Shown here in pieces: positions 271-37,913 of a stretch of 64,000 bases of DNA. The notes under the pieces were generated by a model that was not told where the DNA came from, searched no databases, and was given only the letters and a program-made list of their open reading frames with translations. This DNA comes from Paenibacillus hemerocallicola. Its GTDB lineage: Bacteria; Bacillota; Bacilli; Paenibacillales; NBRC-103111. The DNA lies in NCBI RefSeq assembly GCF_006265175.1, contig NZ_VDCQ01000044.1, positions 1-64,000 of the forward strand, in the 5' to 3' direction. Both the position numbers and the translations under genes were made by a program. Each line of letters begins with the position of its first letter. The first letter of the stretch is position 1.

Positions 271-2655
271 TCAACGATCCCGGCTAATGATATAAGTCAG
301 CAAATGTTTCAAAAACACGGGAGCGCGCGGCAGCTTCTTCCACTCCTCCATGGCGAGGCAGTAGTGCTCCCACATCTCTTTTTTGGCGCCATCCCGTCCC
401 AGAACGGTCACGAAAGTCGAGGTGTCGTTTTCAATGTCTTTGCCGGCGGGCTTCCCAAGCACATGCACATCCCCTTCTGCATCAAGCAGGTCATCCTTGA
501 TCTGAAAGGCAATGCCCGCATGATAAGCATAGCCGGATAAGCCGGCAATTTCCGCCTCGTCGGCTTTCGCGAGAATGGCCGGCATGACCAGCGAAGCCTC
601 GAAGGCGATGCCGGTTTTGTAAAAACAGATGCGGTTCAATTGCTCAAGCGTTTGCACTTTTCCTTTGGAGCGCAAATCCATCGCCTGACCCGCGCACATA
701 TCCCCCGCCCGCCGGGACGAATATTGGATCAAGGACAGTACGGTTTTGGCGTCGAACCCTTGCAAGGAAGCCTGCTCTTCTGTCGCCTTCTGGATCAGAA
801 ACAGGCCGGTCAGCTCCGCGGTGGCGCTATCGTGCGCTTCATGCAGCGTCGGACGCCCTCTGCGGACGGACGCGTTGTCCTGCGACGGCAAATCGTCGAA
901 GATCAGGGAGGCCGTATGCATATATTCCAACGATCTGAGCAGCGGAGCGATCGCTGCCGCCTGAAGCCCGTATTCGTCGACCCCCATGACCCAGGCCAGT
1001 ATGGGCCGCAGCCGTTTGCCGCCTCCTTCCAGACTGTAATTGGCCGCGTCGATGATCGCCTCCTTCACCGGCGGAATCCCGTCCTGCTTCTTAATGAGCA
1101 GCAGGCTGTCGATCTGTCGGCGGACCGTAGCGATTTTGTCCAGAAACTGCTGCTCTTCTATCCGGTCGTTTTTCAGGACGGTCACCATCCGGTCCCGCAG
1201 CAGCTTGTCGAAAAAGTTCACATCGTCCGTACTGCGAACCAGTTTTTGGACAAGAAGATTGAACTCCGGAATTCCGGAGGCGAACGTCGTTACGATCTCG
1301 TTATACGCGTCCTCGCCTGCGCGCCGCCTGTATCGTTTTAAACCGTTGACGGCGCGGGCGAGAATCACGTCCCGGGCTTTCGCATCGTTATCGTATACAT
1401 GATGGAGCAAATGCGAGATAACCGCCCAATACAGCTCGAAAGGATTGATCAAGTCCGAACGCCGGCCGCCGTAGGTCCAATAATACGTAAAGGGGGTCAC
1501 CGCTCCGGCTTTCTTATCCTCAAACATATCCGCAAAGTCGTCGGCCAGCTGGTTATAGATGCCGTAGTAAAAGGTGCGTTCGTCGAAGCCCTCATCGGCG
1601 GGGACGCGTATGACGGACCGGACGATGAGCCGGGAAAAGGCCGATTTCAAAATGATCGGCACATACAGCTCTTCGTTCGTGTAATCCGCATTCGAAAGCT
1701 CCTTTGTCCGGTCCGTATCCTGGGCATGAAAAAATATATAGGACTGCTCGAAAAAAAGGCGCTGCGTTTCCGGCCGCTGATGCTTCTTGATATAAGCATA
1801 GGCGTCCCGAAGCTCCGCGTACACGTACCGGATCAGCTTCTTGTTAGACCCGGCCAACTTCCCGGGCTCCGGCACGGTTCCGGTGAGCAGAGAGGTTCGA
1901 ATCATGCGGCTGTACAGTTCTTTTTCGCGAACGGTTAAAACCGGGGAATCGAGCAGATCGTCGATAAAAGGATAGGTCAGGCCGTACGAATAGCCAAGCC
2001 GGATCGCTTCGTCCAGCCTGCGCGCACGCTCCGCAGACGGCGTATGGTCGGCCAGCTCTTCGATAACGTGCAGGACAACCCCGACGATGATTTTGATGAG
2101 CTTGCGCAGCGAATGCTCGGCGTTCATTTCTTCCGGAATGTGCGCGGAAACGGCTTTTAGCTTGTCGATTACCCAGATGATGGCAGTTTCTATTCCTTCC
2201 TTCCGGGCCCAACGGTACAGCCCTTCCAAGCTTATCAACTCCGGCTCCGCCCCGCCATTTGCCGACTCGGAACGGTTCAAGTACATTTTGACATCGGCGA
2301 CGACTTGGCGAATCCGGCTTTGGGTGGCCGGAGCCTTCAGCGACTTTCCCAAATCCCGCATGTAAATATACGAGACGCTTCGATCCAGGAAGCTGTCCAG
2401 TCTGCCCGTTTGGTTCAGCCAGCGTATATAATTGTGATAATCCCGGGAATCCGGTTTACGAATCGCTTGTGAAAAGAAGGACAGCAACGATTTACGGCCG
2501 CTTCGGCTTTTTTTCCACAATTGAAAGTCTTTGGTCAAAGCGGGGACATAGCTTTTATCCTGGACCTGCTCATAAAGCGATGCGAAATATTGAGCCGCCT
2601 TTCGCTCGGCCAGCCGATACGACTGATCAGCCTGAAGCGTAAGTTCCTCGTTCAT
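271..2655 (-). CDS. chimeric polyprenyl diphosphate synthase with a large N-terminal helical domain
   Basis: 794 aa. The C-terminal part (about residues 505-794) is a trans-isoprenyl diphosphate synthase: GGGKRLRP near 544-551 (isopentenyl-PP binding), first Asp-rich motif DDLPSQD at 587-593 followed by RRGRPT, KTG at 680-682, and second Asp-rich motif FQIKDDLLD at 717-725. This enzyme family condenses isopentenyl-PP with an allylic diphosphate using Mg2+. A normal bacterial synthase is about 290-320 aa; here about 500 extra residues precede it. That N-terminal part is helical and carries two further Asp-rich stretches, DDLLD at 232-236 and NQLADDFADMFED at 368-380, the latter with the same Q-x-x-DD-x-x-D spacing as the real second motif. 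The start at 2655 is chosen because GAGGGAG lies at the right distance; the open frame continues 60 codons upstream without support. The product chain length is unknown. No other terpenoid gene is near. Confidence 0.85.
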   Translation of the reverse strand: MNEELTLQADQSYRLAERKAAQYFASLYEQVQDKSYVPALTKDFQLWKKSRSGRKSLLSFFSQAIRKPDSRDYHNYIRWLNQTGRLDSFLDRSVSYIYMRDLGKSLKAPATQSRIRQVVADVKMYLNRSESANGGAEPELISLEGLYRWARKEGIETAIIWVIDKLKAVSAHIPEEMNAEHSLRKLIKIIVGVVLHVIEELADHTPSAERARRLDEAIRLGYSYGLTYPFIDDLLDSPVLTVREKELYSRMIRTSLLTGTVPEPGKLAGSNKKLIRYVYAELRDAYAYIKKHQRPETQRLFFEQSYIFFHAQDTDRTKELSNADYTNEELYVPIILKSAFSRLIVRSVIRVPADEGFDERTFYYGIYNQLADDFADMFEDKKAGAVTPFTYYWTYGGRRSDLINPFELYWAVISHLLHHVYDNDAKARDVILARAVNGLKRYRRRAGEDAYNEIVTTFASGIPEFNLLVQKLVRSTDDVNFFDKLLRDRMVTVLKNDRIEEQQFLDKIATVRRQIDSLLLIKKQDGIPPVKEAIIDAANYSLEGGGKRLRPILAWVMGVDEYGLQAAAIAPLLRSLEYMHTASLIFDDLPSQDNASVRRGRPTLHEAHDSATAELTGLFLIQKATEEQASLQGFDAKTVLSLIQYSSRRAGDMCAGQAMDLRSKGKVQTLEQLNRICFYKTGIAFEASLVMPAILAKADEAEIAGLSGYAYHAGIAFQIKDDLLDAEGDVHVLGKPAGKDIENDTSTFVTVLGRDGAKKEMWEHYCLAMEEWKKLPRAPVFLKHLLTYIISRDR

Positions 2656-28653: not shown

Positions 28654-31600
28654 TTACTTAATGAACGCTTTAATAAAGTTTGTGAAGATTGTGGCGACAC
28701 TTGCTCTATCGGCATTTGCCTTCGGTGCAAATATGTTTTCACCTACACCGCTTATAATACCGTAGCTTTGGATCCGTGTCACAGCATCTTTTGCCCAGTT
28801 GCTCACTGTACTTGCATCTGCAAAATCCGGCTGGCTCGTGCTGGCCAGTATAATGCCCTTATGCTTTATATAGTTGTTCAGCATTAGAGCCATTTGCTCA
28901 CGAGTGATTTGTGCATCAGGGTCAAATCTTCCATTGCCTACGCCTGAAACAATTTTCTTATCTGTTGCCCAAGCGGCTGCCTTGCCATACCAAGCATGAA
29001 TGTCAACATCGATAAATTCGGATGTCTTGTAGCTTGAAAGGTCTGCTCCCTCCATATTCGCAAGTACCAATACAAACATGGCTCTTGTCATTGTCATATC
29101 CGGAGCAAATATGCCATCGCTTACTCCGCTAAAGAGCTGGCGAGCTGTAACGAAGTCCACTGCCCCTGCATACCACTTTGTGCTTTCGACATCCGCAAAC
29201 TTTACTTTATTGTAGCCAATAACATACCTTGAGAAGTGGCTAAGCGTCATCTTGACTGTACCAGTTGCAGCATCAAATCTCGCCAGTACCTGTTGAAGAT
29301 TTCCGTTATCGTCCAAATAATAGACGACAATTGCGTTTGCATCTTCTCCTGCTTTTAAACTGTACGGAACTTCAACGGTTGCATGACCGCCATTGAAATT
29401 CGACAGCTGGTCATCGCCGCTAGTTACCGTAAAATCATATACCGGTCTGTCCGCAACTTTTTCCAGGATAGCTGCAGGCACGGAAAGTGCCCCCGGATCT
29501 ACAACACTTGCAGAAACTTTCACATCCGCCTTGGCTGCTCCCGCAATTGTTTGTAGAGCCTTGCTGTCGAAGGTGATTGCTGCAACAGGTGTTGAAATCG
29601 CAAGTGATTCTGTCTTGCCGTCGGCTACCGCTCCTATAGAAAGTTTTGGAATAGTCAATTCCACTGCCTTTGCATCGGCCGGAGCTACTACCTTGATTTC
29701 CACTTTGCCGCTTGCAGCTTCCGCGAATGCAAGTGCATCTGCCACTGCTTTTTCCGTTACGGTGGCATAAGCTGTGCTGCCTGTAGCGGTTTGTTTAACT
29801 TCCATTGTAACTGTGATGCTGTTATTTTCCGTTTCGGACGGTTCCGGCTTTGGAGTTACGGTTCCATTGTTATTGCCGCTGCCCCCGCTGTTATTGCTGC
29901 TACCGCCGCTACTATTGTTGTTACCCTCACTATTATTGCTTCCGTCGTCACTACCATTGTCGCTGTCGCCGCCGCTTGGCATGTTTTCATACCCGGCTTT
30001 CAATGTAACCTGGCTTGCCGGCATCGCAAATGCAAATGGATTTGCTGTGTAACTTTCATTTGCTAGACCTGTCGCTGTCCATTTTACAAAGCGTTGTCCG
30101 TTTGGAACAGAAGCCTTTACCGTAACCTGCGAGTCTTGCTTAACCTGTGCAGGACTGCTTACCGCAATTCCATCTACGGTAATAGTGCCTCCATCCACAG
30201 TCAGGGCAGAGACTTTCCTGTCTTCTACTGTCAAAGGTATGGTGTATACAGTGGAGTTCAAATCTGCAAAGGTTATAACAAGGTCATATGTCCCTGGAAC
30301 TAAATTACCATACTCGGGAAGCTTGTTTATGTCATCATATGCAATTTCAAGCCGTTCCGGAGGTGCGCCATAGCCTGTGCTTGGGAACCAATAGCCGCCG
30401 GCGGCATCAAGAACCAGTGCATTGTCCTTCATGATCTTCACGCTGTTTACAGCTTTCCGCCAGTTTTCCGGTTGGATTCCCAAAGCGCCGCTGCCAAAGT
30501 CTACCGTTACCCAAATATGCGCTTCAACAGCCCTGTTGTAATATGCACTGGTTGAGACAAGGCTTGGAGCAACGCCGGAAGTAGCGTCGGACAGCTTGAA
30601 GGTGACGTCAATCGAGTGTACGGCGGTAACATTGTCAAAAATAAATTCGCCTGCCGCTGCCGCCGCCTTGTTTTCCACTCCGTCAACTTTTACGGTGTCG
30701 ATTTCAAAATATTTGTTTGGAGTGAAGGTGAACTTCTGACTTTGTCCGCGCTCGACCAAAACATAACCGTTTGGAGAAATGGTCCCGCCCGTATTTGCCG
30801 TTGCTATTACGGTCACGAAGTTATCTTCCGTTCCCCCGCCAACATCAATAGCTCGGGGTACGGGTACGTTGTTTGTTGCATCCCAATCCCAAACCTTGGT
30901 AAAGTCCCATCCCAACGCCTCGAAAGCTGTTTTTTGCGCAAGTTCAGAAGCCGTCTTTCCTACAAAAGCTGCGGTGATTCCTGTAGGCAGCCCACTTGTG
31001 CTTAACTTGACACTGTCATAGTAGTTGACTTGATTCGGGTCGATGATTGGCCTGCTGCCGGACCAATAGCCTGCTATTTTACCAGGTGCAGCCTCGTATA
31101 CTGCATTGGACACCGAATTGCCAGTAAAGGTTTGGAGCAGACTGCCTGAAGAACCGCCCATATCACCTACAACAGCACCGAAATATTGACCTCCGACAAG
31201 CCCTGTGACCGTACCCTTCACATAGTTATTAAGAATAACTTTTCCGGTTGTCGTATCTCTTTGGGTAAGCGGCGAACCTGAACCGTTCCAATTTGTACCT
31301 CCGATCAAGCCGCCAACCGTATTTCCATAAACTTCTGCGGTTACGGAGGAATTTTGCACAGTGCCCGCATGGAGCAAACCTACAATACCGCCCGTATAGC
31401 CGGCACCGGTTACTTTTCCATCCACATAGCTGTTTTCAATCGTGCCGATAGAAGTTCCCGCAATGGAACCCGTGCTATTGACGCCGGTAATATCTACATT
31501 CACCAATTTTACATTGGCCACTCTGCCGCCTGCACCTATATAAGCAAATAAGCCAGTGTTATTGTTGCCGCTCAATATGTTTAGATTTCGTATCTTATAA

Positions 31601-34600
31601 CCTTTTCCGTTGAATGTGCCTAGAAATGGAGTTGGAGTGGCGCCGCCACCGATTGCGGAAAATGACACGTCTTTCATATCGATATCCGCCGATAACTCGT
31701 ATTTTCCGTCGATCGGATAGGCGGGTGTGCCAAAACCTAATGAAAATGCGACCAACTCGCTTGCTGTTCCTATTTTTACAGCTGTTGTCCCGCTGCCGGC
31801 AAGAGGTGTGACTTTAGCCGTGGCCAAGCTTGTTGCGACTCCGTTATAAAACCCTGTTCCCGTGGCGACGGAGCGCAAATACAAACCTACATCCGCCGTT
31901 TTGATCGAATAATTCGATGAAGCTTCTCCTGCGATGGCTGTCCACGTCGTGCCGTCTGTTGAGCGTTCCCATCTGAAAGTAGCGGTAGCGCTTGATGGAG
32001 TAACGGATGCATTCAGGGTTTGTCCTTCTTTAGCAATCCCTGTAACCGCAACATTCGTTATCGTCAACTCGTTGACGTCCTGCGGGACCTGAGGATAACT
32101 CCATGCCGACAAATCGGGAGTACGCGGTTTGTTTGTAACAAGTGCGTTGCTATCCCCGGTTACCAGAGTTCCATTGGAATCATATCCCTTGCTCGTCACT
32201 CTGATTTCGCTTGGTGAAATTGAAATATTCGAGAATCCTGGTCCTATTGCTCTTACATCCACATACGCAACGTTTGCAGGGTCTTTTGTGTAATAGGTTC
32301 CGCGTCTGTCGTTATTTCCGGAATAGCTTGTGATATAGGTTGTTCCGTTGCCGTAAGTCTGTGGCTCAATGATTGCGCCATTGGCATACAGCTTCGTGCG
32401 GACATAGAGGTGGTCGTGTCCCATAAGCACCACATCGACTCCCGCTTCATCAAAAGCGCTTGTCCAGGATGCGACAGGGTTTGCCATACGGTATCCGAAA
32501 AGAGATTTGTGTATGACCGCAACACGCCATTTGGTCGGGTTTTGTTTAACGACCGACTTCATCCAATCCTGCTGCGCTTTGATTTGCGCGGCGTTGTTCT
32601 GGTCCTGGTAATCCATCATTAAGAAAAGGGTATCGCCATAAACAAAGTAGTAGTTGCTAGACTCAAACTGCATCTTGTCCATACCCGCTACCATTCTTTG
32701 AGTACCGTCGCCTCCGCCGTAATATGACGCGCCGTTTTTAGGCGGATTGTAGCGTCCCAGCAGGTTTTGCAACGTGGGGTCCACCGGGTTCCAGCTGTTG
32801 TTCGGCGCCCAGCTATTGCCCGCACCGTCGTACTCATGATTTCCTGTCCCCATATACAGCGGAACACGCGCGAACGTATCGGCGTTTGACTCAAAAAAAC
32901 CGTCCCATTCCGAGGTGTCGAACCCATAAGTAACCTGGTCGCCCGAGCTCAGAATAAACGCAGCATTCGGGAAATCAGTAAATGCTTGGTTGAGAGCTTT
33001 GTTGTTGTGATTGACTTTATTGTTACTTGCTGCATGAACGTCAGTAACCCAGTTAAAATTAAATGTATCGAGATTGCTGGCAGGAGTTGTAAAGCCGACC
33101 GGCGATTCTACGCTTGTAACATTCGTCGAACCGTCACCGACGGAATATACATATTCCGTGCCAGGCTCCAGTGCGGCCGTTTCCGCCTTATGGCTTTGTA
33201 CCGGCGCAACAGAGTACGCAGTCCCTGCACTATTATAGTTAGCTTTTGAGATGGCGCTTGAAAGGTCTACCGCGTTATTGGTTCCTACAGCAACATTGGT
33301 AAACTTTCCGCCATTGCTTTCAAAGTCCGATTTTTTGGCATAATACAGTTGCGTTGTCTTAGTTGTTACTGGCGTTACCCAGTTAAATCGTGCGATATAC
33401 TTGCCTGACTCTTGTTTAAAGGAGTCGAACAAGTAGGTTACGGAGGTAGGCGCTTTGCCTCCGCCTGTCGGTTGGGTGATCTTATTCCCTGATTTGGTAA
33501 TGGTGAATTCATCGATGACACGGAAAGGATTTTCAGAGCCTGTAGCTTTATAGTACGCTTTATAGATTATCGCATTGCTAGTAACCTCCACCTTGCTGTA
33601 CACGCCTGGTGAGTAGATGGCCCCGCCGCCCGTGCCGGTTTTGTTTATGCGAAGGTCATAAAAATAGTCATTCCAGGAAGTGTCACGGCTGGTGTCCAGA
33701 CTGTAACCATAATTGTAAACCGATCCGCCTATGACATAGGTAGGTGCTTCGCCGAATTTTGCTTTTTCAAAGCTTCCTGTACCTGGCGCAGTAGAAGTTG
33801 TCTTTAAAGTGGTTCTAGCATAGGCATGCTCATGACCGTTGAATACCAAATCCACGCCTGCATCGGTAAGTTTTTTACCTGTTACATTGTCGATTTGATA
33901 GTGACTTGAACCCGGGTCATAGGGTGGAACATGAAGATATGCGATTTTCCATTTCTTAGTGGTTTTCGCAGCCTCATCCGCCAAAAATCCCCATTGAATG
34001 GCGTTGTCAGCGGAAGAAGCAAAAGAATTAAGAGAAATAAACAAGGCGTCTCCATATTCAAAGGAATATACTGTTCCATCTGCAGCTGAAGACAGTCCGC
34101 TTGGTTTCCGCAAAGATGTATGGTTAAATCTTGCTTTATACTGTACAAAATCTCTGTCATAGGATGCACCGTCATGGTTACCCGGGGTTGCCATGATTGG
34201 CAGCGTATCTAAAAGGTTTTGGGCTGCATCAAAGAAATACTGCCATTGGTCAGAAACATGCCCATCCTCTACCACATCGCCCATATGAAGAAGAAACGCA
34301 GCATCCGGTTCATTTGCCTTAATATAGTCGTATAACTTAGCTGTATTGTCAAACGCGCTTACGGATGTCCCCTGTGTATCAGGGGTGATAACAAAAGAAA
34401 ACGGTTTCTTGCCGTTAGAATCGACAGGAGACGTAAAGCTGGCGGTAGCACTATATCCGCTACTTGCGTTGCCAACTTTATAATAATACTTTGTTCCAGG
34501 AGTAAGATCCTGAACAATAACATTAAAGGAATGGATAGCTTTAAAGCCAGTCCGCCTATTCTCAGGAAAAATATCTGTGGCCACTGGAGAGCTCATTGTT

Positions 34601-34860
34601 GCGCTTTTTATTACACCACCAACCAGGTCGGATGATGTGCCATAAATAATTTCTGAATTATTCACCGTCGGATCCGTTACCCAATTAAAACTCATCGCCG
34701 ATTTGCCTGCTTCTGCCCCCCCGGCTATACTCATTGCAATTTGTGACGGAATGGCCGCAGGTGCTGCCGCACTTGCTGTCATAGGTGCTGCAAGTCCAGA
34801 AATAACTAAAAGCACTGCTAAAATTGCCGAAATTAGTTTTGACGCTGATGTTCTGTGCAC
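28654..34860 (-). CDS. giant SLH-anchored protein with two metallophosphoesterase domains
   Basis: 2,068 aa. After a signal peptide (LISAILAVLLVISGLAAP) there are two units of a purple-acid-phosphatase-like Fn3 domain plus a calcineurin-like phosphoesterase. Unit 1 (about 40-455) shows TPDTQG, HMGDVVEDG, ATPGNHDG, LHVPPY and FNGHEHAYAR. Unit 2 (about 470-905) shows WVTDVHA, SSGDQVTYG, GTGNHEYDG, VIHKSLFG and MGHDHLYVR. Both metal-ligand sets are complete. Further on lie an Ig-like domain (935-1020), GLUG-type repeats (1080-1250), two InlB-like repeat domains around a beta domain (1350-1630), a Ser/Asn/Gly linker, and three SLH repeats (1890-2068). It is wall-anchored, probably releasing phosphate from extracellular esters. 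GTG at 34860 is preferred because AGAGGAG precedes it; a TTG seven codons earlier overlaps that site. Confidence 0.9.
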   Translation of the reverse strand: MHRTSASKLISAILAVLLVISGLAAPMTASAAAPAAIPSQIAMSIAGGAEAGKSAMSFNWVTDPTVNNSEIIYGTSSDLVGGVIKSATMSSPVATDIFPENRRTGFKAIHSFNVIVQDLTPGTKYYYKVGNASSGYSATASFTSPVDSNGKKPFSFVITPDTQGTSVSAFDNTAKLYDYIKANEPDAAFLLHMGDVVEDGHVSDQWQYFFDAAQNLLDTLPIMATPGNHDGASYDRDFVQYKARFNHTSLRKPSGLSSAADGTVYSFEYGDALFISLNSFASSADNAIQWGFLADEAAKTTKKWKIAYLHVPPYDPGSSHYQIDNVTGKKLTDAGVDLVFNGHEHAYARTTLKTTSTAPGTGSFEKAKFGEAPTYVIGGSVYNYGYSLDTSRDTSWNDYFYDLRINKTGTGGGAIYSPGVYSKVEVTSNAIIYKAYYKATGSENPFRVIDEFTITKSGNKITQPTGGGKAPTSVTYLFDSFKQESGKYIARFNWVTPVTTKTTQLYYAKKSDFESNGGKFTNVAVGTNNAVDLSSAISKANYNSAGTAYSVAPVQSHKAETAALEPGTEYVYSVGDGSTNVTSVESPVGFTTPASNLDTFNFNWVTDVHAASNNKVNHNNKALNQAFTDFPNAAFILSSGDQVTYGFDTSEWDGFFESNADTFARVPLYMGTGNHEYDGAGNSWAPNNSWNPVDPTLQNLLGRYNPPKNGASYYGGGDGTQRMVAGMDKMQFESSNYYFVYGDTLFLMMDYQDQNNAAQIKAQQDWMKSVVKQNPTKWRVAVIHKSLFGYRMANPVASWTSAFDEAGVDVVLMGHDHLYVRTKLYANGAIIEPQTYGNGTTYITSYSGNNDRRGTYYTKDPANVAYVDVRAIGPGFSNISISPSEIRVTSKGYDSNGTLVTGDSNALVTNKPRTPDLSAWSYPQVPQDVNELTITNVAVTGIAKEGQTLNASVTPSSATATFRWERSTDGTTWTAIAGEASSNYSIKTADVGLYLRSVATGTGFYNGVATSLATAKVTPLAGSGTTAVKIGTASELVAFSLGFGTPAYPIDGKYELSADIDMKDVSFSAIGGGATPTPFLGTFNGKGYKIRNLNILSGNNNTGLFAYIGAGGRVANVKLVNVDITGVNSTGSIAGTSIGTIENSYVDGKVTGAGYTGGIVGLLHAGTVQNSSVTAEVYGNTVGGLIGGTNWNGSGSPLTQRDTTTGKVILNNYVKGTVTGLVGGQYFGAVVGDMGGSSGSLLQTFTGNSVSNAVYEAAPGKIAGYWSGSRPIIDPNQVNYYDSVKLSTSGLPTGITAAFVGKTASELAQKTAFEALGWDFTKVWDWDATNNVPVPRAIDVGGGTEDNFVTVIATANTGGTISPNGYVLVERGQSQKFTFTPNKYFEIDTVKVDGVENKAAAAAGEFIFDNVTAVHSIDVTFKLSDATSGVAPSLVSTSAYYNRAVEAHIWVTVDFGSGALGIQPENWRKAVNSVKIMKDNALVLDAAGGYWFPSTGYGAPPERLEIAYDDINKLPEYGNLVPGTYDLVITFADLNSTVYTIPLTVEDRKVSALTVDGGTITVDGIAVSSPAQVKQDSQVTVKASVPNGQRFVKWTATGLANESYTANPFAFAMPASQVTLKAGYENMPSGGDSDNGSDDGSNNSEGNNNSSGGSSNNSGGSGNNNGTVTPKPEPSETENNSITVTMEVKQTATGSTAYATVTEKAVADALAFAEAASGKVEIKVVAPADAKAVELTIPKLSIGAVADGKTESLAISTPVAAITFDSKALQTIAGAAKADVKVSASVVDPGALSVPAAILEKVADRPVYDFTVTSGDDQLSNFNGGHATVEVPYSLKAGEDANAIVVYYLDDNGNLQQVLARFDAATGTVKMTLSHFSRYVIGYNKVKFADVESTKWYAGAVDFVTARQLFSGVSDGIFAPDMTMTRAMFVLVLANMEGADLSSYKTSEFIDVDIHAWYGKAAAWATDKKIVSGVGNGRFDPDAQITREQMALMLNNYIKHKGIILASTSQPDFADASTVSNWAKDAVTRIQSYGIISGVGENIFAPKANADRASVATIFTNFIKAFIK

Positions 34861-34969
34861 TTCAAGCAGATCTCCTCTCAATTAGATATACGGCCATTAT
34901 GATCACTGTATATTAAATCTAATCGAGTATTATTTTAAGATTGTGTTAATTCTTATATGATTATTATTT

Positions 34970-37358: not shown

Positions 37359-37913
37359 GTGAGACAAGGATTTCTGGCGTTAGGCTTGATTACGGTCACA
37401 GCCGTTTTGGTTGCAGGCTGCAGCGCTGCCGGCTTCCATTCAGACAATGCGCAGGATGCCAAGAAGCTGACGAAAGGCTTCCAAAGAGGCCCGACGTACC
37501 CGGAGCGTCCCGGGGTCGGCTTGCAGGTTGACGCCCACATCCTGTCCGTCACTTCAGCCAGCAAGCATAAGCAGGAAGCTTTCCAGGTGCTCGCGACGGT
37601 CGTTTCCGACGAGGTTCAACTGGATATTGCCAAGAAAGGCAAAATTAGCGCCTTGAACGATCCGAAGATTCAGAAGGCGTTCGGGGAAAACTTGACCTTC
37701 GTCAATGGAAAAAACCTGCAGGCTGCTTTTAAGACAAAGCCAGCCGAAACGTTTGTAGCCACTGAATATATTAACGATGCCAAAACGGAAATACGGGCCG
37801 CCTTTAAAGAGGTTACCGAAAAGGGAAAGGACATTAATACCGCGCTCCGCGAAGCCGAGGAAAAAACAAATTTGAAAATCCAGCAAAAGGAAGCGGCAAA
37901 AGTCGTGAAATAA
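37359..37913 (+). pseudogene. solute-binding lipoprotein with internal deletion, frame intact
   Basis: 184 aa. The lipoprotein signal (FLALGLITVTAVLVAGC) is normal, but the text then leaves the N-terminal lobe after about 25 residues and continues with the C-terminal third of a family-1 binding protein (PTYPERPGVGLQVDAHILSV, SASKHKQEAFQVLA, EKGKDINTALREAEEK). Usual length is 420-450 aa. There is no stop or frameshift and the GAGG before the GTG at 37359 is good, so a protein is probably still made, though it cannot form the two-lobed sugar site. It is divergent from the GntR/LacI regulator. Confidence 0.7.

Follow-up and report, generated by a model that had tools for sequence, protein, structure and literature searches.

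The 64,000-nucleotide stretch of Paenibacillus hemerocallicola DNA that we analyzed (contig NZ_VDCQ01000044.1; hereafter, the window) carries on its minus strand, at positions 271 to 2655, a gene for a 794-residue fusion protein that we interpret as a bacterial bifunctional terpene synthase, with a probability of about 0.6. Both activities are inferred, while the folds are predicted by structural models; the C-terminal domain would make a diphosphate that the N-terminal domain would ionize. Specifically, the C-terminal domain (residues 505 to 794) would build an all-trans polyprenyl diphosphate, probably of C20 or longer, by condensing dimethylallyl diphosphate with isopentenyl diphosphate (IPP). 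In the N-terminal domain (residues 1 to 495), D232/D233/D236 and D372/D376/D380 would hold a Mg2+ cluster and ionize this diphosphate, after which the same domain would cyclize or quench the cation to yield a terpene hydrocarbon or alcohol. With a predicted helix linking the domains, the product may pass between neighboring active sites. The initial annotation had offered a bacterial bifunctional terpene synthase as one of two options, and it is the one favored by the model of the N-terminal domain, which aligns with class I terpene synthases and has its Asp motifs at helix ends.

The fusion gene and its prenyl diphosphate synthase domain

The open frame at 271 to 2655 is real, and the motifs that the initial annotation had read in it (DDLLD at residues 232 to 236, NQLADDFADMFED at 368 to 380, GGGKR, DDLPSQD, and FQIKDDLLD) are all at the residues it gave. 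Upstream, the frame remains open as far as an ATG at 2835, which would give 854 amino acids. We preferred the start at 2655 because an ATG occupies the aligned position in 77 of 80 fetched relatives (the exceptions being L042, L051, and L063) and because a ribosome-binding site, GAGGGAG (2663 to 2669; this and all other features of the gene lie on the minus strand), is found 7 bases upstream. The fetched loci were the best 80 of 426 stretches that encode a relative in a species-level collection, and a bias toward well-kept copies is possible. All but one of them encode a full-length fusion of 786 to 797 residues; in L049 (P. rigui) the frame is shorter and ends in the C-terminal domain. Conservation was measured in an alignment of 64 proteins, namely, the window protein and those of 63 of the 80 loci, whose kinship means that the rows are not independent witnesses.

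The C-terminal domain (positions 271 to 1143) is assigned as a trans-prenyl diphosphate synthase: it matched Pfam polyprenyl_synt above the cut-off and has the basic residues of the IPP site as well as both Asp-rich motifs, DDLPSQD (residues 587 to 593; positions 877 to 897), preceded by an invariant Ala582 five residues before it, and FQIKDDLLD (residues 717 to 725; positions 481 to 507). No in-frame copy of the second motif was found in L006 and L049. The Lys of the D-x4-K-S-T stretch that follows this motif is replaced by Asn (34), Thr (18), Ser (10), or His (1) in the 64 proteins (63 rows shown); Asn also occupies this position in HepT from the same genome, showing that the Lys is not universal. 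Elsewhere in this genome, on contig 83 (L121), a response-regulator-like frame lies beside a polyprenyl synthetase gene that is divergent (PF00348 at 35.5 bits) and that we take to be ComQ-like.

The N-terminal domain and its possible functions

The two Asp motifs of the N-terminal domain, DDLLD (positions 1948 to 1962) and NQLADDFADMFED (positions 1516 to 1554), are more than chance. Their seven Asp residues (D232, D233, D236, D372, D373, D376, and D380) were present in 64 of 64 aligned proteins and were also invariant in the 76 rows of a second alignment (A2). The lowest-entropy 9-mer within residues 1 to 500 begins at residue 368, and the eight lowest-entropy 9-mers all fall inside residues 365 to 377 or 224 to 236. 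Scanned across 117 loci (some genomes being represented twice), the second motif appeared as ADD[F/L][A/T/S]D...D in 113, while the other 4 escaped the regular expression. D380 allowed no replacement, whereas the equivalent position of the C-terminal domain, D729, is Asp in 56 proteins, Glu in 5, Asn in 2, and His in 1. The distance between the two motifs is 140 residues in the N-terminal domain versus 134 in the C-terminal domain. Residues R316, R342, R346, R441, R445, and Y451 are invariant in the 64-protein alignment too and are candidates for the diphosphate-sensing Arg and the RY pair of class I terpenoid synthases.

The second motif of class I terpene synthases has been published as (N/H)DXX(S/T)XXXE (PMC8307374). 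The initial annotation saw no NSE/DTE triad in the window protein, which is correct for the canonical residues but not for the arrangement: the spacing of the triad (N/D)Dxx(S/T)xxxE is retained as DDxxDxxxD in D372, D376, and D380, with Asp replacing both S/T and E.

For residues 1 to 500 the annotation had expected a class I terpenoid fold if its first option were true, and the AlphaFold model of the N-terminal domain (positions 1171 to 2655) indeed aligned best with class I terpene synthases in VIA-align. The domain is thus predicted to have the class I all-helical fold, preceded by an additional helical stretch. In the model, DDLLD lies at the end of helix 227 to 236 and the second motif spans the end of helix 357 to 375. 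A model of the full-length protein, built with 64 sequences (predicted local distance difference test score, 85.6; predicted template modeling score, 0.83), joins both domains by a continuous helix over residues 482 to 518 (positions 1102 to 1212) as assigned by DSSP. Foldseek matches of the N-terminal model to the PDB had weak E-values. In the viral library of Foldseek, two uncharacterized giant-virus proteins, Cedratvirus kamchatka A0A6G8MX44 (7.7e-5) and Pithovirus LCPAC403 A0A481ZCB8 (1e-4), matched the model (residues 1 to 500) with E-values better than that of any PDB chain.

No sequence family was found for the N-terminal domain above the cut-off in profile searches. The terpene synthase and DUF2600 profiles that had been proposed as a check both failed to detect it: at an E-value of 10 the window protein matched PF00348 only, with no match to the DUF2600 profile (PF10776), which was also absent from the listed families (25 of 39) of 76 N-domain members. 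DUF2600 instead occurs as a separate gene in 97 of 98 genomes searched, including that of P. hemerocallicola, and Terpene_syn_C_2, the canonical class I terpene synthase family, was detected in a single genome among 299 sampled from the same phylum (L182 in genome G233). The domain was also compared by profile-profile alignment (hhalign) with class I terpene synthases (12), squalene/phytoene synthases (15 of 30 loci), DUF2600 proteins (30), and C-terminal domains (18). No score exceeded that of the best reversed decoy, and the C-terminal domain tied with the decoy (E-value, 0.14). Since these scores are at decoy level, we claim no sequence family for the N-terminal domain.

A class I fold with a metal site would also suit an enzyme that forms no ring, whether a second prenyltransferase (of chain-length or head-to-head type) or a phosphatase acting on prenyl diphosphates. 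Its product would be a linear isoprenoid, long or branched, or the corresponding alcohol. Several observations speak for such an enzyme, and two of them weigh against a cyclase. The likeness of the second motif to the prenyltransferase sequence QxxDDxxD, pointed out in the initial annotation, is genuine, with Q369 present in 64 of 64 proteins in addition to the DDxxD. Moreover, R184, K185, and K188 (all 64 of 64) lie 44 to 48 residues before D232, near the register of GGGKR in the C-terminal domain, where K547 lies 40 residues before D587. Of 76 N-domain members, 32 gave weak PF00348 matches (best E-value, 7.9e-4), and the only match range shown, that of member 1, covers residues 285 to 382 and includes the second motif; the Foldseek PDB matches listed were mostly prenyl synthases as well. 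However, the PF00348 similarity was equaled by AvrM-A, evidently a chance family (10 of 76 members; best E-value, 4.3e-4), and the 50 listed VIA-align rows were all of cyclase type with no prenyl synthase, an absence that excludes nothing. The domain also has neither GGGKR nor an RRG after its first motif, and a normal IPP site is therefore missing. Considering both sides, we regard a non-cyclizing enzyme as unlikely, though as the likeliest of the alternatives to the bifunctional synthase.

It is less probable still that the N-terminal domain, being catalytically dead or regulatory, serves as a partner that sets the chain length of the C-terminal domain. HepS, the partner of HepT, has such a role in chain length, and two-subunit long-chain synthases do exist, the Bacillus subtilis heptaprenyl diphosphate synthase heterodimer (9kp1) being among the listed Foldseek matches; the N-terminal domain, moreover, has no known activity. 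A noncatalytic partner, however, would hardly need seven motif Asp residues kept in 64 of 64 proteins, in the windows under the strongest constraint within the domain. The other option in the initial annotation, a decayed prenyl synthase in tandem with an active one, draws on the same weak PF00348 similarity and on an hhalign match in which the best alignment to the C-terminal domain pairs both second motifs, although at decoy level only. We consider it highly improbable, because the mean column entropy is equal in the two cores (0.84 for residues 141 to 480 versus 0.83 for residues 505 to 794, with residues 1 to 140 looser at 1.34), the motifs are invariant, and the full-length fusion is retained in 79 of 80 relatives.

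Promoter, gene unit, and distribution

Upstream of the gene lies an ECF (extracytoplasmic function)-sigma-like promoter, GTAACC-N15-CGTAT (positions 2725 to 2750). Promoters of ECF sigma factors typically have AAC and CGT cores at such spacing. Counting the window with the 80 loci, 52 of 81 had GTAACC-N-CGTAT with a spacer of 12 to 19 in the 500 bases upstream (spacer 15 in 50 and spacer 16 in 2), while 100 Markov shuffles gave a mean of 0.02 matches and a maximum of 1. Limited to spacer 15 to 16 and to the nearest 250 bases, this strict pattern preceded the fusion gene in 51 of 80 loci, and a relaxed version (spacer 15) did so in 65 of 80; neither preceded any of the 1126 other open frames in these loci. 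Both patterns were composed after inspection of the upstream sequences. The relaxed matches together with the spacer-16 loci L033 and L069 account for every one of the 67 loci fetched from Paenibacillus, Brevibacillus, and Fontibacillus, and the 13 loci from Bacillaceae and Clostridium all lacked the pattern. The distance from promoter to ATG varies from 64 to 200, and the motif is therefore not mere local similarity, although the loci share ancestry. In these loci the promoter is specific to the fusion gene, and we infer from the sequence pattern that an ECF sigma factor controls it.

Sporulation-type promoter patterns showed no excess over shuffles. Used as a regulon search, the strict pattern identified no regulon and gave no clear excess elsewhere in the P. 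hemerocallicola genome, with 11 matches versus 5 for the reversed control; summed over seven relatives, there were 54 versus 39. A second exact match in the window, at 37791 to 37816 on the minus strand, is probably due to chance. Some loci (L044, L052, L055, L080, L096, L097, and L099) have a longer leader with a hairpin-like GGAG...CTCC sequence between promoter and gene; situated within the 110 bases that precede the start codon, it is possibly an attenuator.

Downstream, a hairpin, AGTCCGTAGG...CCTACGGACT, followed by a T-rich stretch (positions 134 to 160) is a likely terminator. A same-strand frame begins within 150 bases downstream of the fusion gene in 15 of 80 loci and ends within 100 bases upstream in 1 of 80, and the most widespread other cluster in the neighborhood reaches 14 of 80. 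With so few adjoining same-strand frames and no neighbor common to more than 14 loci, the fusion gene is mostly a single-gene unit in Paenibacillus-type bacteria. Because this mostly single-gene unit stands behind an ECF-sigma-like promoter, the product would perhaps be a stress-linked, membrane-soluble terpene. Pfam annotation of neighbors covered the seven genes nearest to the fusion gene in the window, and an Rfam scan of the window gave 0 matches. Farther away, the window contains a 2075-codon open frame (28654 to 34881, minus strand).

The fusion was found in its own genome and in 33 of 97 related genomes. In a sample of 398 genomes drawn from the phylum there were 8 carriers, including its own genome and six of its order; 73 genomes from the order of the eighth carrier yielded 3 clear matches and 1 marginal match (E-value, 0.009). 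The 80 fetched loci came from Paenibacillus, Brevibacillus, Fontibacillus, Bacillaceae (Neobacillus, Bacillus, and Cytobacillus), and one Clostridium. Since the Clostridium and Bacillaceae copies are as close to the window protein (60 to 63% identity) as some Paenibacillus copies, the sequences suggest transfer of the gene between lineages. No stand-alone N-terminal domain was present among the frames listed in the related-genome and phylum searches, all of which had 659 to 871 residues, and a plasmid collection contained no relative of the domain, the single match being at chance level (E-value, 0.2).

Comparison with known systems

Compared with farnesyl and geranylgeranyl diphosphate synthases (IspA and CrtE), the C-terminal domain showed 20 to 36% identity over 258 to 290 residues among 50 rows listed, with at least 30% in 33 of them, but it differs in being fused, in carrying Ala five residues ahead of the first motif, and in the replaced Lys after the second. 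The N-terminal domain shares its predicted fold with the class I terpene synthases BjKS, LrdC, and PhmA, but has no sequence match to them; according to its PDB title, PhmA lacks the NST/DTE motif, and thus departures from the triad exist among class I terpene synthases. YtpB, the tetraprenyl-beta-curcumene synthase of the DUF2600 family, is likewise a Bacillota terpene enzyme acting on a long prenyl diphosphate, although, as shown above, the DUF2600 profile does not match the window protein and DUF2600 is encoded by a separate gene. The ytpAB genes of B. subtilis are reported to be activated by the ECF sigma factor SigM (PMC8144471), with SigE in sporulation added in a further account (PMC11708026). 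The parallel with the promoter of the fusion gene is suggestive only.

The closest parallel in architecture is provided by the prenyltransferase-terpene synthases (PTTSs), described as a family confined to fungi (PMC8307374). Among the matches listed in the open-access literature, by title and start of abstract, we found no report of this protein or of a bacterial prenyltransferase-terpene synthase chimera. Tentatively, and at slightly less than even odds, we propose a broader picture in which hundreds of Bacillota species carry a distinct class I cyclase family, unseen by current profiles and with an all-Asp triad, joined to a prenyltransferase of its own. This would be a separately fused counterpart of fungal PTTSs, making a C20 to C30 terpene under ECF-sigma control in an envelope-stress response. 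If true, this bacterial equivalent would be a source of di-, sester-, or triterpenes overlooked by profile-based mining, would offer another design, possibly a more rigid one, by which prenyltransferase and cyclase transfer substrate, and would link terpene production to ECF-sigma control in Paenibacillus.

The fusion has the one-chain arrangement of fungal-type PTTSs such as the fusicoccadiene synthase PaFS, that is, an N-terminal class I domain (assigned here by predicted fold only) followed by a C-terminal prenyltransferase in about 700 to 800 residues. Each domain has two Asp motifs at similar spacing (135 residues in the fungal enzyme ZbSS; PMC8307374). In contrast to the fungal enzymes, the fusion is bacterial, its N-terminal domain has no detectable relation to terpene-synthase profiles and carries an all-Asp triad, and, judging from the VIA-align ranges, roughly 90 to 140 extra residues precede the class I core. 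In PaFS, whose prenyltransferase core is octameric, a flexible linker some 70 residues long connects the domains (PMC8190136), whereas a continuous helix is predicted here. The fusion probably works like a PTTS, a comparison that concerns function and makes no claim of kinship by descent.
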